Shown here: in pieces, positions 50,225 to 61,947 of the stretch
How positions within the stretch are numbered: the first letter of the stretch is position 1
Layout of the letters: each line of letters begins with the position of its first letter
NCBI RefSeq assembly: GCF_004114615.1
Contig: NZ_CP035300.1
Coordinates: 124,001-188,000, forward strand
Origin: Dyella sp. M7H15-1
GTDB lineage: Bacteria > Pseudomonadota > Gammaproteobacteria > Xanthomonadales > Rhodanobacteraceae
Direction: 5' to 3'
DNA length: 64,000 nt
The notes under the pieces: model-generated
Database searches by the model: none
What the model was told of the DNA's origin: nothing
Seen by the model: the letters and a program-made list of their open reading frames with translations, nothing else
Translations under genes and position numbers: made by a program

Positions 50225-51808
50225 ATGACACACAACATCCACAGCGACAAAATCCTCATCCTCGATTTCGGCGCGCAGTACACGCAACTGATCGCGCGGC
50301 GCATCCGCGAGATCGGCGTCTACTGCGAAATTTGGGCCTGGGATCACAATCCGGCCGACATCGCTGCATTCGGCGCCAAGGGCATCATCCTTTCCGGTGG
50401 ACCGGAATCCACCACCGTGCATGGCGCACCCAAGGCGCCGCAGGAGGTGTTCGATGCGGGCTTGCCGATTCTCGGCATTTGCTACGGCATGCAGACCATG
50501 GCCGCGCAACTAGGCGGCGCAACGGAAGCGGCCGATGTGCGCGAGTTCGGGCATGCACGTGTTGATGTGGTTGCCGTGGACCAGTTCTTCGCCGGCCTTA
50601 GCGATCACGATTCCAGCCACACGCTGGATGTATGGATGAGCCACGGTGATCACGTTGCCAAGGCGCCGCCCGGCTTCACCGTCACGGCTGTCACCGATCG
50701 CATTCCGGTGGCAGCCATGTCCAACGAAACCAAGCGCTGGTACGGTGTGCAATTCCATCCGGAAGTGACACACACCAAGCAGGGCAATGCTTTGCTCAAG
50801 CGTTTCGTGACCGAAATCTGTGCTTGCCAGACACTATGGACCGCAGCGCACATCATCGACGACCAGATCGCACGCGTACACGAGCAAGTCGGCAAGGATC
50901 ATGTGTTGCTCGGCCTGTCCGGCGGGGTGGATTCGTCCGTCGTCGCCGCACTGTTGCATCGTGCCATCGGCGACCAGCTGACCTGCGTCTTCGTTGACAC
51001 CGGCCTGCTGCGTTGGCAGGAAGGCGATCAGGTGATGGCCACCATGGCCGAGCACATGGGCGTGAAGGTGATCCGCGTCAACGCCGCCGAACGTTATTTC
51101 AAGGCGCTGGAAGGCGTGGCCGATCCGGAAGCCAAGCGCAAGATCATCGGCCGCTTGTTCGTGGAAATCTTCGACGAAGAATCGTCCAAGATCACCGAAG
51201 CCGGTCACGGCCAGGTGAAGTGGCTAGCACAGGGCACCATCTATCCTGACGTGATCGAATCGGCTGGTAGCAAGACCGGCAAAGCGCACGTGATTAAAAG
51301 CCACCACAACGTAGGTGGTTTGCCGGAGCATATGAAGCTCAAGCTGGTCGAGCCGTTGCGCGAACTGTTCAAAGATGAAGTGCGCCACATCGGTGTGGAG
51401 CTTGGCCTGCCGCGCGAAATGGTCTACCGCCATCCGTTCCCGGGCCCAGGTCTAGGCGTACGCATCCTCGGCGAAGTGAAAGCCGAATACGCCGAACTGC
51501 TCGCGCGTGCCGATGCCATCTTCATCGAAGAGCTACGCAAAGCCGATCTTTACGACAGCACCAGTCAAGCCTTCGCGGTGTTCCTGCCGGTGAAGTCGGT
51601 AGGCGTGGTGGGTGACGCCCGTGCGTACGAATGGGTGATCGCATTGCGCGCAGTCGAAACCATCGACTTCATGACCGCCCACTGGGCACACCTGCCGCAT
51701 GAGTTCCTTGGCAAAGTATCAAATAGAATTATCAATGAGTTACATGGTATATCTCGTGTTGTTTATGACATAAGTGGCAAGCCACCCGCTACCATTGAGT
51801 GGGAGTGA
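50225..51808 (+). CDS. guaA: GMP synthase (glutamine-hydrolysing)
   Basis: This 527-residue enzyme aminates XMP to GMP. The class I glutaminase domain has the nucleophile in [10 protein letters not shown] and the His/Glu in FHPEVTHT. The ATP-pyrophosphatase domain has [17 protein letters not shown], and the dimerisation domain ends [11 protein letters not shown] 50225 is the first start matching the family N-terminus ([17 protein letters not shown]). The last ~30 codons switch abruptly to AT-rich codons (AGA, TTA, ATA), although the protein stays normal, showing that an integrating element replaced the gene's 3' end. Confidence 0.96.
51716..51808 (+). other. Probable island attachment site within the 3' end of guaA
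   Basis: From [20 protein letters not shown] to the stop the DNA is AT-rich with codons AGA, TTA, ATA and AGT, unlike the GC-rich rest of guaA. A tyrosine integrase starts 310 bp beyond. Integration into the guaA 3' end with restoration of the reading frame is a known behaviour of genomic islands. The displaced original end (attR) was not found in this window. Confidence 0.75.
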
Positions 51809-51849
51809 ATTTACGTCCTTCGAGGACTATCGCTAGCTATCGAAAAAGT

Positions 51850-51887
51850 GCCGTAACGTATTGATTTTAAAATAAATACGTTGCGGC
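51850..51887. other. 13-bp hairpin downstream of guaA
   Basis: GCCGTAACGTATT (51850-51862) and AATACGTTGCGGC (51875-51887) pair with a single G-T mismatch around an AT-rich 12-base loop. It may end the guaA transcript or form part of the attachment region. No T-run follows. Confidence 0.55.
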
Positions 51888-51935
51888 AGCTATCGGTGAC
51901 TATCGCCGGCCAGCAGAAAAAGTTGGCGGTAGAGC

Positions 51936-52093
51936 TGACGGTAAAAATCGAGGCCGGATTAAGACATTCTCGTTCACTATTCAGACTTTTACCGTCTTTG
52001 ACGGTAAAAGCCTTCTCGGGAAAGCTTGTTTTATACGGCTTTCCGGGCATCAGCAGGTCTCCAGGTCCTTGACGGTAAAGCCTGACGGTAAAG
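51936..52093. repeat. Integrase arm-type repeats TGACGGTAAA
   Basis: Four direct copies, at 51936-51946, 51999-52009, 52070-52080 and 52083-52093, plus one inverted copy (TTTTACCGTC, 51987-51996) fill the 310-bp space between guaA and the integrase gene. The inverted copy and its neighbour form a palindrome with a TTT centre. Spacing and place fit arm sites bound by the integrase N-terminal domain beside the attachment core. No gene is seen in this gap. Confidence 0.75.
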
Positions 52094-52118
52094 CCGTCAA
52101 AAGCCGGAGGAAACCTCG

Positions 52119-53375
52119 ATGCTCACTGACGCTGCACTACGAAATCTGAAGCCTAAGTCCAAGATTTATAAGGCTTCTGACCGGGACGGAATGTACGTGA
52201 CGGTATCGCCTGGCGGCACTGTCACCTTCCGCTACGACTACCGCCTCAACGGCCGCCGCGAGACGCTGACCCTCGGGCGCTACGGCCCCGGCGGCATCTC
52301 ACTGGCGATGGCACGCGAACTGCTCCTGGACGCGCGCAAAGCCGTGCTCAAGGGCATCTCGCCTGCGCTCGAAAAGCAGCGCGAGAAGCGCCGGGTGGTC
52401 GCCATCAAGACCTTCGGCACGGCGATGGAGACGTGGCTGGCCAATGCACGATTGGCCGACAGCACGCGCGTCATGCGCAAGCACATCATCGACCGGGACA
52501 TCCTGCCGGTCTTCCAGAACCGCCTACTGACCGAGATCCAGGCCGAAGACCTGCGAGCCTTGTGCAACAAGGTCAAGGAACGCGGGGAGCCCGCCACGGC
52601 GGTCCAGATTCGGGACATCGTGAAGCAGGTCTATGTCTACGCCATCGCCCACGGCGAAAAGGTGGACAACCCCGCCGACAGCGTGGGAGCGGCCTCGATC
52701 GCCACCTTCGTACCGAAGGATCGGGCCTTGTCGCCTCTGGAAATCCGACTGTTTGTGCAACAGATGGAATCAGTGGCGACCTATCCGACCATCAAGCTGG
52801 CGCTGCGCCTGATCCTGCTGACGTTGGTGCGCAAGAGCGAACTGATTCAGGCCACTTGGGATGAGGTCGATTTCGAGAGCAAAACTTGGACGATCCCGAA
52901 ACAGCGGATGAAAGGGCGCAACCCACACGTGGTCTACCTGTCGCGTCAGGCGCTCGACATCTTCGTGACGTTGCACGCCTGCGCGGCCGGCTCAAGGTTC
53001 GTTTTTCCTTCTCGTTACGATGCCGAGCGGTTCATGTCCAATGCGACCTTGAATCGCGTCACGCAACTCGTGGCAGAAGCTGCAAAGACCAAGGGGCTGC
53101 CGCTACAACCGTTCACCGTCCACGATCTGCGCCGTACCGGCTCGACGCTGTTGAACGAAATCGGCTTCAACCGCGACTGGATCGAGAAGTGCTTGGCGCA
53201 CGAGGACGGACGTTCCTCGCGCTCGGTCTACAACAAGGCCGAGTACGCGGAGCAACGGCGTCACATGCTGCAAGAGTGGGCCAACCTGGTCGATGCCTGG
53301 GGCGGCGGGCAGACCTACGTGCCGAAGCTGTTGCCGAAGAACGTGGTCGTGCCGGCGTTGAGCGCAATTGCCTGA
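52119..53375 (+). CDS. Tyrosine integrase of the guaA island (P4-type)
   Basis: This 418-residue recombinase begins with the DUF4102-type arm-binding domain (MLTDAALRNLKPKSKIYKAS, DGMYVTVSPGGTVTFRYDY), a core-binding domain and a catalytic domain. The catalytic set is visible: LVRKSELIQATWDEVD (Arg), the HDLRRTGSTLLNEIG box (His, Arg), LAHEDG (second His) and SVYNKAEYAEQRR (nucleophile Tyr). GGAGG stands 8 bases before ATG 52119. It is transcribed away from guaA, as usual for islands using this target, and all residues needed for activity are present. Confidence 0.93.
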   Translation: MLTDAALRNLKPKSKIYKASDRDGMYVTVSPGGTVTFRYDYRLNGRRETLTLGRYGPGGISLAMARELLLDARKAVLKGISPALEKQREKRRVVAIKTFGTAMETWLANARLADSTRVMRKHIIDRDILPVFQNRLLTEIQAEDLRALCNKVKERGEPATAVQIRDIVKQVYVYAIAHGEKVDNPADSVGAASIATFVPKDRALSPLEIRLFVQQMESVATYPTIKLALRLILLTLVRKSELIQATWDEVDFESKTWTIPKQRMKGRNPHVVYLSRQALDIFVTLHACAAGSRFVFPSRYDAERFMSNATLNRVTQLVAEAAKTKGLPLQPFTVHDLRRTGSTLLNEIGFNRDWIEKCLAHEDGRSSRSVYNKAEYAEQRRHMLQEWANLVDAWGGGQTYVPKLLPKNVVVPALSAIA

Positions 53376-53435: not shown

Positions 53436-53711
53436 ATGGCTCGTTCCCCTCATCCGAAGAAAGAGGTCGAGGAAGCTCTCAGGTACGCCGAAGGGCAGGG
53501 CTGGCGCGTCGAAGTTGGCGGCAGCCATGCTTGGGGGCGGATGTATTGCCCGTACAACGATGAAGAATGCCGCTGCGGCGAGTTCTGCATCACCAGCGTA
53601 TGGAGCACGCCGAAGAACCCAGGCAACCACGCACGTGCCTTGCGGCGTGTCGTGGACAACTGCACCACGCATCGCAAGCAGCGCGAGGCTGACGGCGGTG
53701 CCAAGGAGTAG
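53436..53711 (+). CDS. Small HicA-like protein (putative toxin)
   Basis: This 91-residue protein reads EEALRYAEGQGWRVEVGGSH, AWGRMYCPYNDEECRCGEFC, ITSVWSTPKNPGNHARALRR. The helix-strand start with GW-x-V-x-x-GGSH, a histidine in the loop and a closing helix resemble HicA mRNA-interferase toxins (dsRNA-binding fold, GSHH motif). Extra cysteines (CPYNDEECRCGEFC) are unusual and could bind metal. It is the first gene of a two-gene unit; the partner starts 4 bp after the stop. GGAG lies upstream. The toxin role is inferred, not shown. Confidence 0.6.
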   Translation: MARSPHPKKEVEEALRYAEGQGWRVEVGGSHAWGRMYCPYNDEECRCGEFCITSVWSTPKNPGNHARALRRVVDNCTTHRKQREADGGAKE

Positions 53712-53715
53712 AGCG

Positions 53716-54240
53716 ATGGAATACACCTTCACCCTGAAGTACCAACTCGCCGACGACGATAGCGACCCGGGAGCGCTGGTTGAGCGCTTGGGCGAAGCTG
53801 GCTGCGACGATGCTTTGGTCGGCATCGGGCAGCCGGGGCGCCTGGCGCTGGAGTTCACCCGCGAAGCGGCCGACGCCGGCGCCGCCGTGCGCAGCGCATT
53901 GGCGGACGTGCGCCGCGCGGTACCGTCGGCAAAGCTGATCGAGGTGGCGCCGGATTTGGTCGGCCTGACCGACGTGGCCGAGATCGTCGGCGTGTCGCGG
54001 CAGAACATGCGCAAGCTGATGCTGGCGCATCCGAGCAGCTTTCCGGCGCCGGTGCATGAGGGCAGCGCGTCGATCTGGCACCTGGCGGACGTGCTGACCT
54101 GGTTGCAGGCCAAGGGCAGCTACGCGCTGGCCAAGGACGTGCTCGATGTATCGCGGGTGGCCCTACAGGTCAACGTGGCGAAGGAAGGCCAGCGCTTGCC
54201 GCGCTCGGCGTCCAAGGAACTGCAAGCCTTGGTTGGATGA
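53716..54240 (+). CDS. Helix-turn-helix partner of the HicA-like protein (putative antitoxin)
   Basis: This 174-residue protein has an N-terminal beta-rich part (MEYTFTLKYQLADDDSDPGA) resembling small ligand- or partner-binding domains, and a central DNA-binding helix-turn-helix (LTDVAEIVGVSRQNMRKLML, then SIWHLADVLTWLQ). A perfect AAGGAG lies 7 bases before ATG 53716, within the end of the preceding gene. By position and DNA-binding domain it could neutralise the upstream protein and repress the shared promoter at the 30-bp palindrome. I know of no proven function. Confidence 0.6.
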   Translation: MEYTFTLKYQLADDDSDPGALVERLGEAGCDDALVGIGQPGRLALEFTREAADAGAAVRSALADVRRAVPSAKLIEVAPDLVGLTDVAEIVGVSRQNMRKLMLAHPSSFPAPVHEGSASIWHLADVLTWLQAKGSYALAKDVLDVSRVALQVNVAKEGQRLPRSASKELQALVG

Positions 54241-54256: not shown

Positions 54257-54643
54257 TCATCCCTCACTCGAACCCGCCCGGACAGGGCGAGTTTTTCGTA
54301 GATGGACATCCGGCTTCGAGACGCTACCGCGACGAGTTTGCTTGCGCTGCTCGATCCAGGCTTCCACTTCGGCCAAGTCCCACACGACGCAGCGTGGTGT
54401 CAGGTTGAAGCGGCGCGGGAACTCTCCCCGGCGTTCCATTTCGTAGATCGTCGTCTCGGCTAAGGGGACGATTTGCCGCAATTCTTGGCGCCGGATGGTG
54501 CGGCGGAAGGGCAAAACACAGTGCTTTGGAAACTGCGGGATATCGTCGTAGGCGTCAGAACCGGGCAACGGGGCGGATACGGGGTTCGCGTGCTCCGTGG
54601 CATCGTTGCCTCGGCTAATGAGTGGTGACGGGTTATTCTCCAT
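54257..54643 (-). CDS. AlpA-family helix-turn-helix regulator
   Basis: This 128-residue protein has the AlpA/MerR-like core RTIRRQELRQIVPLAETTIY, EMERRGEFPRRFNLTPRCVV, WDLAEVEAWIEQRK. AlpA proteins are typical of P4-like islands, where they activate integrase or excision genes. An unstructured N-terminus of about 45 residues precedes the core. GGAGGG stands before ATG 54643. It is convergent with the putative antitoxin gene and divergent from the nuclease operon across 138 bp, so it could control that operon. Confidence 0.82.
   Translation of the reverse strand: MENNPSPLISRGNDATEHANPVSAPLPGSDAYDDIPQFPKHCVLPFRRTIRRQELRQIVPLAETTIYEMERRGEFPRRFNLTPRCVVWDLAEVEAWIEQRKQTRRGSVSKPDVHLRKTRPVRAGSSEG
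54271..54296 (+). terminator. Intrinsic terminator of the HicA-like operon
   Basis: CGCCC (54275-54279) pairs with GGGCG (54285-54289), extended by AAC/GTT after one mismatch, and is followed by TTTTT (54292-54296). It lies 31 bp past the antitoxin stop and overlaps the end of the convergent alpA gene. Confidence 0.65.
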
Positions 54644-54781: not shown

Positions 54782-55720
54782 ATGGCGACGGTGACGGTTT
54801 CTCCGATTCATTTCGAGGACTACAGCGGAATCCAGTTCGAGCGCCTTGTCTTTGCGTACCACGTGCGCGCAGGCTGGCGTGATTTGGCTTGGCGCGGCCA
54901 ATCGGGAGGCGACCAGGGGCGGGACATCTCCGGCGTCGAACCTTTTGATGGCCGACCGTCACGTAAGACCATCATCCAATGCGCCAACCGGGATACGTTG
55001 ACGCTGGCGAAGGCCAAGGCAGACATGGGAAAGGCGGTGAAGGCTTTTGGTGGAACGCCAGATGCCTTCAAGTTCGTCTCTCGTGGCGCTGTTTCGGACA
55101 CCAGCCGCACCCGGATCGAGCAAGCTGCAGCGGATTTGGGTGTTGCGTATGTAACGATATGGTCTGGCGTTGAGTTCGAGGAAAACCTGCGGCTTCGCGC
55201 TGAATACCTGTTACACCGATTCGTCCAAGGCATCGAGTTTCCGGATGCCGGGGTAGAGATCCGCAAGTTTGTAGATGATTTTCCCGATCTCTCAGATGCC
55301 GAGACGCTGCAACTCATGGCGGCTGTGTTCGATCGGCCGGTCTTCTATACACCGTTTCATCAGGAAAGCTCCCTGCCTGCTTTTCAGCAGGCGATCGAGG
55401 ACACTATCGGCGCCCTCAATACCGGTGTATGGCGCACTCGTGAGGGTGACGAGATCAGGCGTATCCCGTCGATCCATCATCTCCGAGATCAACGCATCCG
55501 AGGAGTGCTCGAAAAAGTAGTTCGTCAGGTCGACGAGCTGCGTCGCATCTTCGTGACTCGCCTTAGGGAGGGGGAGATCAGACACTGTGGATGCGGCCAG
55601 CCGGATTGCCCCACGTACATGCTCTCGCAAGGTGTTGCGGACGAACTGGATAAGGCCAGACGAGAAATCCTGACGGCATTTCGATCAGTGCATGCGCCCT
55701 TCGGCGTGAGCCTTCGTTAG
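54782..55720 (+). CDS. Mrr-like restriction-endonuclease-fold protein, active site apparently altered
   Basis: This 312-residue protein begins with a restriction-endonuclease-like core: helix with E20 (GIQFERLVFAYHVRAGW), then GGDQGRDISGVE with D48 and the strand KTIIQCANRD. Mrr-family enzymes have QxK at this strand; here Q66-C67-A68 lacks the lysine, so cleavage may be lost or use another residue. The C-terminal half is helical, with a cysteine cluster HCGCGQPDCPTYM that may bind zinc. It is the first of four closely spaced plus-strand genes. It could sense or bind DNA for the nucleases that follow. Confidence 0.65.
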   Translation: MATVTVSPIHFEDYSGIQFERLVFAYHVRAGWRDLAWRGQSGGDQGRDISGVEPFDGRPSRKTIIQCANRDTLTLAKAKADMGKAVKAFGGTPDAFKFVSRGAVSDTSRTRIEQAAADLGVAYVTIWSGVEFEENLRLRAEYLLHRFVQGIEFPDAGVEIRKFVDDFPDLSDAETLQLMAAVFDRPVFYTPFHQESSLPAFQQAIEDTIGALNTGVWRTREGDEIRRIPSIHHLRDQRIRGVLEKVVRQVDELRRIFVTRLREGEIRHCGCGQPDCPTYMLSQGVADELDKARREILTAFRSVHAPFGVSLR

Positions 55721-55753
55721 CCCATTGGTATTTGACTAGATGCGAGCACGGCA

Positions 55754-56233
55754 ATGGCACTGTCCGCCGAACAAATTCAATATCTCAACCGGCATGCACC
55801 GGGTGAGGCTGTGGCGCGTGTGCTGTCCGAACTACTCCTCAATGACCGTGACTTACTCGGCATCGACGCTAACGAACGTTCCATCACCTTTCGATTCGCG
55901 ATGTATCTCCAACGTCGGTGCGCTGACTGGACCGTGGACTGCGAATACAACAGGGATGGCACAGAACCCAAGAGGCTCGGGCATCTAGAGCTTTACCCCG
56001 ACTGCGAGGACGATGAGGCGAAGACAGTATTTCCGGATGTGATCGTGCATCGGCGGGGTACAAGACAGAATCATCTCGTTTTGGAGTTCAAGAAATCGAC
56101 GAGCCGCGTTGACCGACAGATCGACCTACGAAAACTTCGGGGCTACAAGCAGCAGCTCGGCTACGAGCACGCGTTGTTTGTGGAGGTTGGTACGGAGGGG
56201 CGCGCAATTATCACCGCGCTCGAATGGGCTTGA
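55754..56233 (+). CDS. Small PD-(D/E)XK nuclease-like protein
   Basis: This 159-residue protein has the complete motif set of the PD-(D/E)XK fold: a helix with E42 (ERSITFRFAMYLQRR), D95 in VFPDVIVHRRG and E111-x-K113 in NHLVLEFKKSTS, then a helical tail (RKLRGYKQQLGYEHALFVEV). The protein is only the nuclease core, so it may work as a dimer or with neighbours. The gap to the previous gene is 33 bp and to the next 21 bp. Substrate is unknown; proteins of this kind are frequent in defence islands. Confidence 0.68.
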   Translation: MALSAEQIQYLNRHAPGEAVARVLSELLLNDRDLLGIDANERSITFRFAMYLQRRCADWTVDCEYNRDGTEPKRLGHLELYPDCEDDEAKTVFPDVIVHRRGTRQNHLVLEFKKSTSRVDRQIDLRKLRGYKQQLGYEHALFVEVGTEGRAIITALEWA

Positions 56234-56254
56234 TAGGCGATAAAGAGATAGATC

Positions 56255-57070
56255 ATGACACGCATCCCGCCGTTCAACTCGCAGCACCTTGAAGCTGCAT
56301 GCCGAGTTCTTGCCGATACCGATCGGGGCTTGAGCGGTACGCAGATCGAGAGGCTGCTGCAAGAGATAGAGGTAGCTGACCCGTCGCCAGGCATTACTAA
56401 ATGGAAGCGACTGTTCAATGCATTGGCCGGCGTACAGAACCAACATCAGGTCGGCAATCACCTCATCATGTTCATCAACCGTGCGATGAATCCGGTGAGC
56501 TACGCACGAGACCCAGGCTCGTTCGCTTGGCGGCGCGATGAACTCAACGTTGTGTTGGCGTTTTCGGGTTTCTACGTTCGAGAGGATGGCAAGGTCGGAC
56601 ATGCCGATAAGGCAACGACCTTGGATGCGGCGCGTGCGCGTGCGGGTCGGCTGAAGGTGGCACTGGAAAGCCGAAGCGTACATGCAGAAGTTCTGAGCTA
56701 TTGTCGAGCTGAACTACTGGATGAAAACTATTTTCATGCCGTCTTCGAGGCCAGCAAGGGTGTCGCGGAGCGTATTCGATTGCTCTCCGGCCTCACCGGC
56801 GACGGTGCTGACCTGGTGAACAAGGCATTCGCCGGTCAGCAGCCCACTCTGGCCTTGGGGCCACTCACCACTGATTCCGAAAAAAGCGAGCAGAAAGGTT
56901 TTGCGAATCTGCTGATCGGCCTGTTCGGTGCCGTGCGTAACCCGCTTGCTCACGCGCCCAAGACGAACTGGCCGATGTCTGAGCAAGATGCGCTCGATAT
57001 TCTCACGCTCGTCTCCCTAATCCATCGTAAGTTGGACCGCGCACAGAAGGCACCGACTGTATCGCCGTAA
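56255..57070 (+). CDS. TIGR02391/Ymh-like protein with HEPN-type RNase motif
   Basis: This 271-residue protein has a variable N-terminal part (1-145) and a C-terminal domain that I recognise as TIGR02391/Ymh-like: NYFHAVFEASKGVAERIRLL, SGLTGDGADLVNKAF, then GFANLLIGLFGAVRNPLAHA. R228-N-P-L-A-H233 fits the R-x4-6-H signature of HEPN ribonucleases, which often act as toxins in abortive infection. AGAG precedes the ATG. Spacing of 21 bp on both sides puts it firmly within the four-gene operon. It may be the killing effector of the system. Confidence 0.68.
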   Translation: MTRIPPFNSQHLEAACRVLADTDRGLSGTQIERLLQEIEVADPSPGITKWKRLFNALAGVQNQHQVGNHLIMFINRAMNPVSYARDPGSFAWRRDELNVVLAFSGFYVREDGKVGHADKATTLDAARARAGRLKVALESRSVHAEVLSYCRAELLDENYFHAVFEASKGVAERIRLLSGLTGDGADLVNKAFAGQQPTLALGPLTTDSEKSEQKGFANLLIGLFGAVRNPLAHAPKTNWPMSEQDALDILTLVSLIHRKLDRAQKAPTVSP

Positions 57071-57091
57071 GCATCCCAATTCGGGGAGAAC

Positions 57092-58525
57092 ATGACTTAT
57101 CCAGATTGGCGAGCCTATCAAGAGGCCGCAGCAGAAGTCTTTCGACGCCTTGGGTGCAACGCTCAGGTTGACTACCGAGCGAAAGGTGTCCGTGCGGCAC
57201 ACGACATTGACGTGTACGTAACTTTTGTCCGTTCGGGCATCCTTTGTACTTGGGTAATCGAATGCAAGCTATGGACAAGTCGCGTGCCCAAGGAAAAGGT
57301 TCTCGCGCTCAAGAGCATCATCGACGATCTTGGTGCCGATCGCGGCATCATGATCAGCGAAGCAGGGTTTCAGCCTGGCGCCCAGGATGTTGCGCGCGGA
57401 ACGAATATCACACTGGTAACTTCGCTGGAAGATTTCGCTCGCACAGCAATAGCTGCTGCGTCGGAGATTCCGCTCGCGCTAGACGGCCAGGACGAAGGGA
57501 CGGCTATCTATCAGTTTCCGGAAAGAGCTGAACCACAGGATTTACTCTTGCACGGCGAATTCATTGTCACCGCAAACTGGGCGGGACGAAGCATTTCGAT
57601 TGTCAATCCGTCTTCCAAGACGATTGTCCGTACCATCGACTTGGATAAATACGAAACGATTTCTCCACAGAGCGGGGCGTGCGAGATTCAAGGTCATCCC
57701 CCGGGAAGTTTAGCTATTGCGGACGGCCGCCTGTTTGTGGGTCAGGTTTTCTCCGACGTGATTCTCGTCATTGATCTAGCAACGCATGCCATCGTCAAGA
57801 GAATTGCTGTGCCCGGCGGTGGCGAGGGACAGCTCGCGGTGTCACCTGACGAAAAGGCAGTCTATTTTGCTAGCAATCGTCTGAATCAGTTCTACATCAT
57901 CGATAGTGCGACATATACGTTCACGATTGTTGCATATCCAACCGGTGGCAGGGGCTGTATGTCGCTGCTAAGGCATCCTGTACGCCCCCTCCTTTATGTC
58001 GGCATCCAGCGGGGCGGGCATATCGAAGGAAGAGGGTATCCACACGCCAACTGTTATTTGGCCATTTACGATCTCAGTCAGAACGCATACGTCGGGAATT
58101 CGCAGCTTGCCGAGATTATTGATGGCAGAGCCGACGATGCTACCCCTGCGTGTCTCACCTATGATGATCGTTACAATCGCCTCTATGCCGGCATGTTTCA
58201 GTCCATGCGAGGTATCTGCGTACTGGAGGCCGACTCCGGTGAGCTGATTCAAGACATTCGCTTTGCACGGAGTCCTTGGAATAATTCGTTTCGGTGGGCA
58301 GACCCTTTGTCACAGGCCCTCACGGGTCACTCGCTCCTGTCGGTAAACAGAAATAATCGCGAACTTGTAGCGCTGGATCGGACCTCGCTGCAAGTAAAGA
58401 AAAGCCTATTCTTAGGTGATGCGCCAAATGGCCCGAGGGCCGTTTTAGTATGGAGAGAGCACGCGGTGGTCAGCTATCCAGGGAGAAATGGACTGATCTT
58501 CATCCCACTCGAAGCATTAGCCTGA
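57092..58525 (+). CDS. Mrr-like nuclease fused to a beta-propeller
   Basis: This 477-residue protein has two parts. Residues 1-135 are an Mrr-type restriction-endonuclease fold: YQEAAAEVFRRLGCNAQVDY, D38/D40 in AAHDIDVYV, E57-C-K59 in TWVIECKLW, and DRGIMISEAGFQPGAQDVA. Residues ~145-477 are a beta-propeller; at least six repeats share a D-x2-[ST]-x3-5-hydrophobic turn (VNPSSKTIVRTIDLD, IDLATHAIVKRIAVPG, IDSATYTFTIVAY, LDRTSLQVKKSLFLG). The nuclease site looks intact. A propeller would bind a protein or ligand and gate the nuclease. GGGGAG lies before the ATG. I know of no described system with this fusion beside a HEPN protein. Confidence 0.75.
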   Translation: MTYPDWRAYQEAAAEVFRRLGCNAQVDYRAKGVRAAHDIDVYVTFVRSGILCTWVIECKLWTSRVPKEKVLALKSIIDDLGADRGIMISEAGFQPGAQDVARGTNITLVTSLEDFARTAIAAASEIPLALDGQDEGTAIYQFPERAEPQDLLLHGEFIVTANWAGRSISIVNPSSKTIVRTIDLDKYETISPQSGACEIQGHPPGSLAIADGRLFVGQVFSDVILVIDLATHAIVKRIAVPGGGEGQLAVSPDEKAVYFASNRLNQFYIIDSATYTFTIVAYPTGGRGCMSLLRHPVRPLLYVGIQRGGHIEGRGYPHANCYLAIYDLSQNAYVGNSQLAEIIDGRADDATPACLTYDDRYNRLYAGMFQSMRGICVLEADSGELIQDIRFARSPWNNSFRWADPLSQALTGHSLLSVNRNNRELVALDRTSLQVKKSLFLGDAPNGPRAVLVWREHAVVSYPGRNGLIFIPLEALA

Positions 58526-58664
58526 AGAGGTGTTTGTTGGTTGTTCGCCAGTGGTTTCTCAATTAGATGTATGTCCCGGCGTAGGGCCGCGCGCCGCAAC
58601 TCGTGCCGAGTTGCGGTCGTCAGGCTTTGATCCCTTGACTTCCTATCAAGTGGGCGCGGGGCAT

Positions 58665-59621
58665 TCAAATATCTTCAGCGCGCCCGCGAATCCAGTCGTG
58701 GTCGGGGACGACCAGTGACCCAACAATGCCGGTTGTCCGTCGCGCCAAAACTTGTTCGTGCTGCGAAATTGAAAGGGCGAGCATTTGGATCGCTGACCTG
58801 GCAACACGTAGAGCGCGCAGTGCTTCCTGCATAAACAGCTCCCGTTGGTGACGTTCGATTTCAGGTGCCTGTCTGCTGTGTGCTGGGTCCCCAAAATCAT
58901 GCAGCACCACGAATCGGTGAGTGCCCGCATTGCGGAGGTCCTTTTGAGAACGCAGAATGCCCGCGCTGCTGTCGTAATCTTCGGCAAGCTCCACGAGGCC
59001 ATAGAGCGCACTGACACCCCCACGAATCGTCTTTTCAACCTTCTCGGCGAGGGGGCGCACGCCAGTCACTTTGTCGAGGTCCCGGCGCCATAGCTTGCCG
59101 AAATAGATCTTATTTGGTGGTTGTCCAAGCTCGAAATAATGGTTCGCCGTTACGGCGATCTTGTCGAGCAGATCAAGGGCTGTCCGATGCGCCAAGATAA
59201 GCGCAGATGCATCCGGGCCATAGGTCGCATAATCTAGGGTATCGCCAAATCGCCCCGTCGCTGGCCATGCGCTCTCATCGAGCGCTCGCCATGCAAGATC
59301 ACGAGCGAGAATGAAGTCGCTCTTGAGCACATTGAACATAGCGAATACGGGCGGCGGCATTGCGATCGCACCCGCTTCACGCTCCCGAATCCCAGGGAGC
59401 ATGAGCCAGTCCAGCTTGCCTAGGGTGGCGTCGATGAGTTCGACGGCTGGTGCAAGCGTCAGGCGCTCGTGCTCGACCCATTCAATGAATGGATCTGTGT
59501 GAGGTGATCGCGGTAGCGGATCTTCCAATTCGCTGGCGAAGGCAGCGATCTGCTCTGCGGCCTGCGTACCAGCGTATTGGATAACGCGATCCTGATGCCG
59601 ATGTGCAATCTTGGCCAACAT
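58665..59621 (-). CDS. HEPN-domain protein, LA2681-like; N-terminus possibly truncated
   Basis: This 318-residue, mostly helical protein shows ALDLLDKIAVTANHYFELGQ, PPNKIYFGKLWRRDLDK and QKDLRNAGTHRFVVLHDFGD, with R230-x4-H235 matching the HEPN ribonuclease signature. The spacing resembles the LA2681-like HEPN family. It faces the four-gene operon tail to tail across 139 bp in which I see no gene. The open frame continues upstream for ~19 codons (YEQGGCSELTRVEAI) to a stop at the junction near 59680, without a start codon, so the original N-terminus may have been cut off. Confidence 0.62.
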   Translation of the reverse strand: MLAKIAHRHQDRVIQYAGTQAAEQIAAFASELEDPLPRSPHTDPFIEWVEHERLTLAPAVELIDATLGKLDWLMLPGIREREAGAIAMPPPVFAMFNVLKSDFILARDLAWRALDESAWPATGRFGDTLDYATYGPDASALILAHRTALDLLDKIAVTANHYFELGQPPNKIYFGKLWRRDLDKVTGVRPLAEKVEKTIRGGVSALYGLVELAEDYDSSAGILRSQKDLRNAGTHRFVVLHDFGDPAHSRQAPEIERHQRELFMQEALRALRVARSAIQMLALSISQHEQVLARRTTGIVGSLVVPDHDWIRGRAEDI

Positions 59622-59667
59622 GATTGCTTCGACGCGGGTGAGTTCTGAACAGCCACCTTGCTCATAA

Positions 59668-60927
59668 AGCCAGAGGGATTACGCTGACTTCAGCGGCCTG
59701 TTGCGTGCCCTGCCGGGTGTGCTGGCCAAAGCGGGCAGCACTCCAGAGGTTTTCGAAAAGACCTTCATGCAGAACTTGGTCGAGTTTGTCACCAGGCAGG
59801 TGCCCAATCGCTTCGTCATCCGCTATCGCGGCAAAGAGCTGAAGCACCACTCGCTCGGGCAGCGCGCTTCCGCGCTGCTGCTGTACGTGCTCAGCCAGCG
59901 ACAGAACGACGTGATCATCATCGACCAGCCGGAAGACGATCTGGACAACCAGACCATCTACGACGATGTGATCAAGCTGTTGCGCGAGATGAGGCCGCAT
60001 GCCCAATTCATCTTCGCCACCCACAACGCCAATTTCCCGGTGCTGGGTGATGCGGAGCAAGTGCACGCTTGCCGCTATCAGGACGAGAAAGTTGCAGTGC
60101 AAAGCGGCAGCATCGACGCCCGCCCAATACAGGACGCCATCATCAACATCATGGAGGGAGGCCAGGAAGCCTTCAGTCGACGTAAAGAGGTTTACAACCT
60201 ATGGAAACTCGACCTGCTTAGCCAGGGAGAAGACAGTCGCCATCAGTTCAAGGAAAACTTCACCAATGCCGATGCGCTGGCGGCGGAGATCGTCGCCTTC
60301 AGCAACACAGCAGGGGGGAAGTTTTTCATTGGCGTACAGAACGATGGCTCGGTACTGGGCTTGTCTGGCGTGGATATAGACCGCCTGAATCAGCTCATCT
60401 CAAACAGCGCATCGCAAAATGTGCGGCCTGCTGTGAACCCGCTCACCGAAAACGTGCCGCACCCGAATGGCACCGTGATGGTGGTCACCATTGCCGAAGG
60501 CGTCAGCAAACCCTACATGGATAAGAACGGCGCCATCTGGGTGAAGAACGGCTCGGACAAACGCCGCGCCACCTCGCGCGAAGAAATCCAGCGCCTGTTC
60601 CAGCAGGCGGGCTTGGTGCACGCCGACGAAACGCCCGTGGCGGGCTTGGGCGTGGGCGATGTGGACATGCCCTATTTCGAAGCCTTTTTCGAACAGCAGT
60701 TCGGCGAGCCGCTCGTCCAGCACAATCAGCCCCTGCCGCTGTTGCTGACCAATATGAATCTGATTAACCAGGGACAGCTCAACGTGGCTGGTAGCCTGCT
60801 GTTCGCTAGGGCACCGCAGTACGCGCTACCTGCTTTCATCGTCAAGGCGGTCGCATTCGTCGGCATTTTTCATGGCATCGAAGATGTGCGTATGTGCAAA
60901 TCAATGATTTTTTTGAGCAAAATTTGA
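59668..60927 (+). pseudogene. Headless SMC/TrlF-like ATPase fused to an AlbA_2 (Schlafen-like) domain
   Basis: The open frame begins at a stop (59665-59667) without a proper start and reads DYADFSGLLRALPGVLAKAG. An ABC-type C-terminal half follows: signature HHSLGQRASALLLYV, Walker B VIIIDQPEDDLDN and the ATHNANFPVLGDAE switch. The Walker A half is missing. After about residue 177 the same frame becomes an AlbA_2 DNA/RNA-binding domain (EDSRHQFKENFTNADALAAE, IVAFSNTAGGKFFIGVQNDG), usually a separate gene in such loci. It ends abruptly in non-family sequence. It is a decayed two-gene defence-type locus rather than a working protein. Confidence 0.7.
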
Positions 60928-61308
60928 CTATCAACAATGTGGGGGTGATTCGGCGTCTGGCAGAAGCCGAAATTCGGTAACCAGAAACGGGTAGAGATTA
61001 CTCACGAGGACTTGTGGGCGCTGACCGATGCCATCGTGGAGCGCGGCGCGCCGGCAACCGCAGTGCCACCCTTAACCAGGTGCTGACGGTGATTGGCAAA
61101 AAACGCCAGCACCTGACCACGCTTTAGCTGCTTGCTCCATACCTTACGACCACGCTCATCCGCGCTGTGCCGTTGAAACACGTGCTCTTTGCCAGATCGA
61201 TTCCAATGGCTGTAAGGTTCATAGCGGTCGCCCTTTCCGGTTGAAGTGGTTGTCACACCACTCTGGCACATGGATGCCGTTTCAGGAGGGGGCGACCATC
61301 CCATTAAC
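60928..61308. other. Island right-end debris without an intact gene
   Basis: These 381 bp hold the tail of the broken ATPase/AlbA_2 locus, a short open stretch on the plus strand (VEITHEDLWALTDAIVERG, about 60989-61045) with no start and no family I recognise, and an IS110-type fragment on the minus strand. No copy of the guaA 3' end is present. upp begins (as its stop) at 61309. Confidence 0.6.
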
Positions 61309-61310
61309 CT
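61100..61310 (-). mobile_element. IS110-family 5' fragment, frameshifted
   Basis: From ATG 61222 the minus strand encodes MNLTAIGIDLAKS, the start of IS110/IS1111 transposases (GIDLAK with the first DEDD acid). After a one-base frameshift near 61180 it continues FQRHSADERGRKVWSKQLKR, GQVLAFFAN. The match stops at about 61100. The leader (61223-61310) contains GGTCGCCCCC and GGGCGACC, inverted copies typical of the upstream end of such elements. Over 80% of the transposase is absent. Confidence 0.75.
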
Positions 61311-61947
61311 ACGTGTGCAACGGCTTCGTCCCAAAAATCTTGTCTCCCGCATCCCCTAGCCCCGGCAAGATGTAGCCATGCTCATTAAGCCGCTCATCAA
61401 CCGATGCGGCGTAGATCTCGATGTCCGGATGACTTTCCTCAATGCGTTGGAGTCCTTCTGGAGCAGCGACCAGGAATAGTCCTTTGATGCGCTTGCAGCC
61501 CGCCGCTTTCAACATGTCGACGGTGGCAACCAGCGTTCCGGCGGTGGCGAGCATGGGATCTACGATCAGCGCGATGCGCTCGTCCAGGCGGCCGGTAAGC
61601 TTTTCGTAATAGGCAATGGGCTTGAGCGTCTGTTCGTCACGCTGCAGGCCGACCACGCTGACCTTGGCGGCTGGAATCAGCTCCAGCACACCCGGCAACA
61701 TGCCTAGTCCAGCGCGCAGGATCGGCACGATGGTGATCTTCTTGCCCTTGATCTGTTGCACGCGCACGGGTCCGGCCCAGCCTTCGATCTGCGCTTCGAT
61801 GGTTTCCAGATCTTTGGTCGCTTCGTAAGTCAGCAACGAGCCGACTTCCGAGGCTAGTTCGCGAAATTCCTTGGTGCTGATGCCGGCACGGCGCATCAGT
61901 CCGAGTTTGTGTTGGATCAGGGGATGACAGACTTCAACGATCTTCAT
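61309..61947 (-). CDS. upp: Uracil phosphoribosyltransferase
   Basis: This 212-residue enzyme salvages uracil to UMP using PRPP. Motifs are [29 protein letters not shown], the PRPP-binding loop [18 protein letters not shown] and the C-terminal [17 protein letters not shown]. The start is ATG 61947 (MKIVEVCHP); a longer frame extends 26 codons upstream without family similarity. It lies at the right border of the island, whose debris begins directly beyond its stop codon. Confidence 0.95.

Follow-up and report, generated by a model that had tools for sequence, protein, structure and literature searches.

PD-lambda-3 with two adjoining restriction-endonuclease-like genes on a guaA island of Dyella sp. 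M7H15-1

PD-lambda-3 is one of 21 systems that were picked from wild Escherichia coli strains via phage challenge, and all of them, PD-lambda-3 included, are described as reducing the plaquing of their selecting phage when cloned (Vassallo et al. 2022, PMC9519451). In a 2026 paper on SNIPE, it served as an abortive-infection control, with infected cells lysing and a second infection round being prevented (PMC13190303), and the table of a review places it under PD(D/E)XK (PMC10952713). HEPN domains of the Ymh type have been reported as solo proteins, as fusions to AbiJ-NTD1 and in operons with restriction-modification genes (Anantharaman et al. 2013, PMC3710099). Here we describe a locus of four genes (g1 to g4) in a stretch of 64,000 nucleotides from Dyella sp. 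M7H15-1 (contig NZ_CP035300.1, positions 124,001 to 188,000), which is referred to as the window and whose first nucleotide is position 1. We favour, with moderate confidence, the interpretation that this is a PD-lambda-3 abortive-infection locus (g2 and g3 being its components A and B) on a mobile guaA island, enlarged by the accessory genes g1 and g4 with a restriction endonuclease (REase) fold and functioning by the mechanism proposed below.

The g2-g3 core

The locus consists of the following genes:

54782..55720, plus strand: g1, 312 amino acids (aa); N-terminal Mrr/REase-like domain and a mostly helical C-terminal part
55754..56233, plus strand: g2, 159 aa; PD-Lambda-3_A, with the PD-(D/E)XK motif D95, E111-x-K113
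56255..57070, plus strand: g3, 271 aa; PD-Lambda-3_B, N-terminal ~140 aa followed by a Ymh/TIGR02391 HEPN domain with R228-x4-H233
57092..58525, plus strand: g4, 477 aa; Mrr_cat nuclease domain with D40 and E57-C-K59, joined to a YVTN/YncE-type beta-propeller; a variable gene 3' of g3

All four reading frames are open, intact and on the same strand, with intergenic gaps of 33, 21 and 21 bp. This layout had been reported in a first-pass annotation of the sequence, which described g1 as a restriction-fold protein without the usual lysine, g2 as a PD-(D/E)XK core, g3 as a TIGR02391/Ymh-like protein with an R-x4-H motif and g4 as an Mrr-like nuclease with a beta-propeller, and the searches reported here agree with these four assignments. 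The same annotation regarded the operon as a new defence system. However, g2 matched the PADLOC model PD-Lambda-3_A over positions 1-159 of 159 (E-value 1.7e-98) and g3 matched PD-Lambda-3_B over positions 1-266 of 270 (2.7e-176), i.e., the pair belongs to an already described system, an outcome that the annotation had itself listed as refuting its proposal. Models A and B were the only PD-lambda-3 components matched in PADLOC, and we take PD-lambda-3 to be a two-component system from its PADLOC/DefenseFinder naming. The A gene is located directly upstream of the B gene on the same strand, and the same order was present in the four E. coli loci inspected; the E. coli g2-g3 genes share ~75-78% DNA identity with the pair in the window. 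Furthermore, g2-g3 pairs exist without g1 and without g4. The full-length matches and this modular gene content rule out a new four-gene system. As judged from sequence, the locus is best regarded as a variant of PD-lambda-3, with an already known core to which g1 and g4 are the addition.

The putative catalytic residues of both core proteins are conserved. In g2, D95, E111 and K113 were invariant in all 13 sequences of a close set and in all 10 of a set reaching 36% identity (the window counted), and the motif looks intact. No significant Pfam or PDB family match was obtained for g2, and an hhalign comparison with profiles of the Mrr domain and of g1 was not significant either; the PD-(D/E)XK reading of g2 therefore rests on these motifs together with the review table (PMC10952713). 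For g3, Pfam (Hypoth_Ymh, 1.3e-44), NCBIfam (TIGR02391, 3.5e-37) and PADLOC (Aga_HEPN, 2.7e-13, residues 142-265) concur on a Ymh-type HEPN domain at ~141-265, and its R-x4-H motif was found in 15/15 full-length sequences, the window counted. For g3, the quality of the AlphaFold model (predicted local distance difference test score, pLDDT, 52.5) was insufficient for a fold search. Sequence searches of PDB with g1, g2 and g3 returned nothing convincing (the matches of g3 to PPR proteins span ~30 residues), and TIGR02391 was named in none of the papers of the collection searched.

All four genes appear to be under constraint. Ratios of nonsynonymous to synonymous changes (dN/dS) against relatives were calculated with a custom script (11 comparisons for g1, 12 each for g2 and g3, and 2 for g4). 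They were 0.08-0.11 for g1 in 10 of the 11 comparisons, synonymous sites being saturated in the remaining one, and 0.05-0.09 for g2 in all 12. For g3 and g4, the proportion of nonsynonymous differences (pN) was 0.055-0.155 against a synonymous proportion (pS) of 0.67-0.77, with saturated synonymous sites in 5/12 and 2/2 comparisons, respectively. The open frames, together with low dN/dS or a pN far below pS, indicate four constrained genes rather than chance frames.

The flanking genes g1 and g4

The g1 protein is the least-known part of the locus. Its match to Mrr_cat (E-value 0.0013) was below Pfam's cut-off. It possesses D48, but the strand expected to hold (E/Q)-x-K reads QCAN in 9/9 close-set sequences (the window counted), and the lysine is also missing from this strand in the distant homologues of loci L027, L029 and L037 (QCVN) and of an Achromobacter locus, L028 (ACAN). 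The D...(E/Q)-x-K active site of Mrr-type (type IV) restriction enzymes is thus absent from g1. Nevertheless, the lysine can migrate in the REase fold, and K77, located close to where the next predicted helix (75-89) begins, is retained in every aligned homologue; loss of activity should therefore not be assumed. The C-terminal half is predicted to be mostly helical and contains a conserved CxC...C(P) cluster. The structure model of g1 is of middling quality (pLDDT 64.9); its Foldseek matches to MspJI, an Avs4 entry and SPARDA entries were weak (best E-value 2.7e-3), and it had no PDB match at E<=0.001. A protein of 1152 aa encoded on an Acidisarcina plasmid (L029:4866-8324) begins with a domain homologous to the N-terminal one of g1 (50% identity over residues 6-181). 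This protein has a P-loop-like stretch, for which Pfam gave only a sub-threshold match to AAA_5 (0.17), and it may be a nucleoside triphosphatase (NTPase)-like protein of the STAND/Avs-like type. Its gene adjoins a Swt1-family HEPN gene.

In g4, both the Mrr-type domain (Mrr_cat, 5.4e-13) and the residues of the D...(E/Q)-x-K site (D40, E57-C-K59) are present. The rest of the protein matches YVTN/YncE-type propeller repeats, with the surface-layer propeller 1l0q as the best PDB match (3.7e-13). No PADLOC 2.0.0 match at E<=1 was obtained for g4; when the Mrr domain of g4 or the E. coli g4 was searched, PDC-S02 was at 0.01-0.03.

Linkage of the four genes and a proposed mechanism

The gene content of related loci was compared in several samples. 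Among 14 genome loci chosen through g2, a full-length g1 was located upstream in eight, a partial g1 in two and none in four; g3 was present in 13, being split into two pieces in L005 and L007, and g4 in two, one of them cut by a contig end. A DNA search of E. coli returned 46 records with g2g3 (44 of 5426 genomes), many of them near-clonal and six being 0H isolates. These records contain g1 (8/46, upstream of g2g3 in 8/8), a g4 match (37/46) or neither (1/46); none has both in this search. As many of the records are near-clonal, little weight can be given to this apparent exclusion; strain C8 has g1 and a 52-aa remnant of g4. Conversely, g4 was matched in 38 E. coli records, with 80% coverage reached in 33. 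It lies directly behind g2g3 in 37 of the 38, and the record BKQ37E has a partial g4 but lacks a g2g3 match. Every plasmid record that covers 80% or more of g4 (18 in all) likewise carries g2 (17, in part broken) or g3 (one). Among 398 genomes of the phylum, the window's own included, matches to g1, g3 and g4 were obtained in 4, 12 and 35, respectively; among the 35, g4 was full-length solely in the genome of the window, and the remaining 34 were matches to part of its domains.

All four genes together were found in the window and in L004 only, among the loci found. In the genome G728 (L036), g1 is followed by g3 after 17 bp and g2 is missing between them; g2 was not found elsewhere in this genome in a run without its own positive control, the same query having matched in the window's genome, which has a single g2. 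The first-pass view of the quartet as one conserved unit is therefore not supported, since g1 and g4 can each be found apart from the pair as well as without the other, and g1 and g3 can adjoin without g2. Scans of viral_contigs with g1, g2 and g4, which detect close relatives only, gave no confirmed relatives, so that carriage of these genes by phages is not supported within this range.

A stack of independent defence genes would also be compatible with part of these data. In this case, PD-lambda-3 and two unrelated single-gene nucleases would have no more in common than a promoter on a cargo island. Indeed, the g1, g2 and g3 families are each found without the others, related islands have different genes at the cargo junction 3' of g3, and none of the 46 E. 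coli g2g3 records matched both g1 and g4 in the DNA search. On the other hand, close g1 homologues (~80% identity or more) and full-length g4 are almost only found touching g3, as the E. coli and plasmid counts for g4 illustrate; this contact occurs at short spacing on chromosomes as well as plasmids and in different genera, and g1 remains directly before g3 when g2 is missing. We consider an independent stack possible but rather doubtful.

A second copy of g3 with 91% identity is present in the same genome behind a different integrase (L096:8725-9543, C1 ~73.7-74.5 kb, outside the window), and no g1, g2 or g4 was found within 19 kb of it. Furthermore, 17 distant g3 loci with 40-50% identity (L076-L082, L097-L100, L104-L109) were compared. 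Their neighbours were assessed by annotation, and in the unannotated L097-L100 only two neighbours were scanned. A recognised REase-fold neighbour was present in 2/17 of them, namely Shedu (L076) and HSDR_N-AAA (L078); the other genes stand alone or beside an ABC-3C, a recombinase or an abortive-infection gene, and most look solitary. A rule that g3 is always paired with an REase-fold gene is ruled out by these numbers. In view of such solitary loci, g3 is likely to be a HEPN effector that is complete in itself and can be activated, its partners being additions. A related frame of 416 aa (L101:7538-8788) has the first 155 aa of g3 (83% identity) joined to an unrelated C-terminus without a significant Pfam match and may represent either a fusion or decay.

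HEPN proteins with small partners often form toxin-antitoxin-like pairs, and g3 could accordingly be a HEPN toxin restrained by g2, in which case g1 and g4 would be additional regulators. The abortive infection described for PD-lambda-3 (PMC13190303) would fit this arrangement. However, the pairing is not obligate, as g3 occurs without g2 in the 91% identical copy, in L036 and in the 17 distant loci (stretches of 4-19 kb), and g2 retains the full nuclease motif. Moreover, the toxin-antitoxin-like systems named in the account of the E. coli screen are PD-T4-5, -7, -9, -10 and PD-lambda-2, and PD-lambda-3 is not in that list (PMC9519451). A toxin-antitoxin-like pair thus appears improbable.

Several observations weigh against an enlarged PD-lambda-3 locus as well. 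The g1 gene is missing from 38/46 E. coli g2g3 records and g4 from five islands that are otherwise co-linear with that of the window (see below); as each is absent from many PD-lambda-3 loci, neither can be essential. No g2, g3 or g4 was detected in the stretches around the distant g1 homologues (L027, L028, L029 and L037; 13-17 kb for L027, L028 and L037), no g1, g3 or g4 at nine distant g2 loci (L030-L032, L038-L043), and no g1, g2 or g4 match in the stretches of any of the 17 distant g3 loci (L104 ends just upstream of g3), most of which also have no recognised REase-fold neighbour, as mentioned above. Finally, E. coli g4 is followed by genes for a protein of 1040 aa without a PADLOC match, a metallophosphoesterase (PADLOC Effector, 3e-9) and a HAD hydrolase (L017:10860-16642). 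The 1040-aa gene and the metallophosphoesterase come after g4 in E. coli H15 and in an Enterobacter plasmid, and the window has neither, so that g4 might belong to another module with these two genes.

We nevertheless prefer an enlarged PD-lambda-3 locus, because g2 and g3 are full-length PADLOC matches with invariant PD-(D/E)XK and HEPN residues, because the positions of g4 and g1 recur beside g2g3 (37/38 and 8/8 in E. coli, 8/14 in g2-selected loci, 18/18 on plasmids), because g1 precedes g3 by 17 bp in the locus without g2, and because the N-terminal domain of g1 also heads an NTPase-like protein of 1152 aa. In the proposed mechanism, g3 would be the executor and, as a HEPN ribonuclease, would cut RNA of the cell or the phage and halt the infected cell. 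The g2 protein would act as a minimal PD-(D/E)XK partner that binds or cuts DNA and triggers or gates g3 upon encountering phage DNA. With its altered active site, g1 would probably have a binding or adaptor role, and the intact-looking Mrr nuclease g4 may use its propeller for recognition. In concert with the pair, g1 and g4 could then widen or tune the triggers of the response. This scheme draws on the homology, motifs, purifying selection and modular linkage seen here, and for protection of E. coli and abortive infection by PD-lambda-3 on published work.

More tentatively, PD-lambda-3 can be imagined as a modular platform, in which a portable HEPN executor (g3) is combined with up to three unrelated REase-fold partners (g1, g2 and g4) as interchangeable sensors of phage DNA. 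The window would contain its fullest version, with g1 as a catalytically altered REase adaptor, as its domain may be in the NTPase-like protein. The natural versions with and without g1, g2 and g4, including g1-g3 without g2 and solitary g3, provide a deletion series for finding sensor and killer. If g1 and g4 do act with the pair, annotation of A and B only overlooks half of the larger loci.

The guaA island and comparison with known systems

The first-pass annotation placed the operon behind an AlpA regulator on an integrase-bearing island at guaA, and this proved correct: the integrase adjoins guaA, and the AlpA-type gene is divergent from g1. The other features of the island are:

52119..53375, plus strand: tyrosine recombinase of the island, adjoining guaA (Phage_integrase 1.1e-23, Arm-DNA-bind_3 1e-18)
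53436..54240, plus strand: PDC-M06A (53436-53711) and PDC-M06B (from ~53716), a PADLOC candidate pair between the integrase and AlpA genes (6e-55 and 2.4e-85)
54257..54643, minus strand: AlpA-type regulator (Phage_AlpA 1.2e-12), divergent from g1
58665-59621, minus strand: LA2681-type HEPN gene (PF18733, 2.2e-38), a second HEPN gene on the same island
59701-60927, plus strand: single open reading frame in which the C-terminal ~155 aa of a TrlF-type ATPase (profile positions 790-944 of 944) are joined to a Schlafen/AlbA_2 domain

An AlpA-type gene also precedes g1 in L002-L006, L009 and L011. No repeat of attachment (att) type was found between 51650-52118 and 58530-61450, no promoter was found in a promoter scan, and a terminator scan gave 5 candidates compared to 4.7 in shuffled sequences.

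From guaA to the end of g3, the island is co-linear at 76-81% DNA identity with five other islands, i.e., those of two metagenome-assembled genomes (L002, L011), Lysobacter chinensis (L003) and Acidovorax (L005, L009). The co-linear block begins at window position 50435 in L009 (main block) and at 50227-50249 in the other four, and the homology ends with g3 (57042-57071) in all five. The genes past g3 differ: g4 and then the LA2681-type HEPN gene in the window, the latter gene directly in L003 and L009, and others in L002, L005 and L011. The stop of homology after g3 in five islands indicates that g1-g2-g3 is the constant part here and that g4 lies at the cargo junction. A sixth island, in Paraburkholderia gardini (L004), possesses g1 to g4 with homology up to window position 58466, and most of PDC-M06 is missing from it.

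The retention of g1-g2-g3 on the integrase side of the five co-linear islands and L004 would be expected if this module mainly guarded the guaA island against competing mobile elements and less the cell against phages. However, no match to the window's integrase or to PDC-M06 was found in four E. coli stretches, one Serratia plasmid stretch and one Enterobacter plasmid stretch, and each of the cloned systems of the E. coli screen, PD-lambda-3 among them, is stated to have lowered plaquing (PMC9519451). A role restricted mainly to island stability is hence quite unlikely.

Some other genes of the island were noted as well. PDC-M06A and PDC-M06B, by eye a putative HicA-like small protein with a helix-turn-helix partner, are retained in 5/14 of the g2-selected loci (L002, L003, L005, L009, L011) and look like a part of the island's own machinery. 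The LA2681-type gene, which directly follows g3 in L003 and L009, is also present in L096, where ~4 kb separate it from the second copy of g3. The joint TrlF-Schlafen/AlbA_2 frame looks like a truncated or fused remnant.

The individual proteins can be compared with known families. The HEPN domain of g3 is shared with the Ymh (PF09509) family and PADLOC Aga_HEPN, whereas its N-terminal 140 aa have no Pfam family match. The N-terminal domain of g1 is matched by the PADLOC candidate PDC-M58A (4.6e-6, residues 14-95), which also matches a 40%-identical relative of g1 (9.9e-10); this model comprises 154 aa, however, and the C-terminal half of g1 lies outside it. An Mrr domain fused to a 7-bladed beta-propeller is described for a protein in one of the 21 systems selected in E. 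coli, the main text being silent on which system it is (PMC9519451). The g4 protein shares this architecture, and E. coli g4 may be the published protein because it is located directly behind PD-lambda-3. Compared to PD-lambda-3 as published (PMC9519451), the locus in the window possesses full-length homologues of both components in the identical order, with g1 before and g4 after them.

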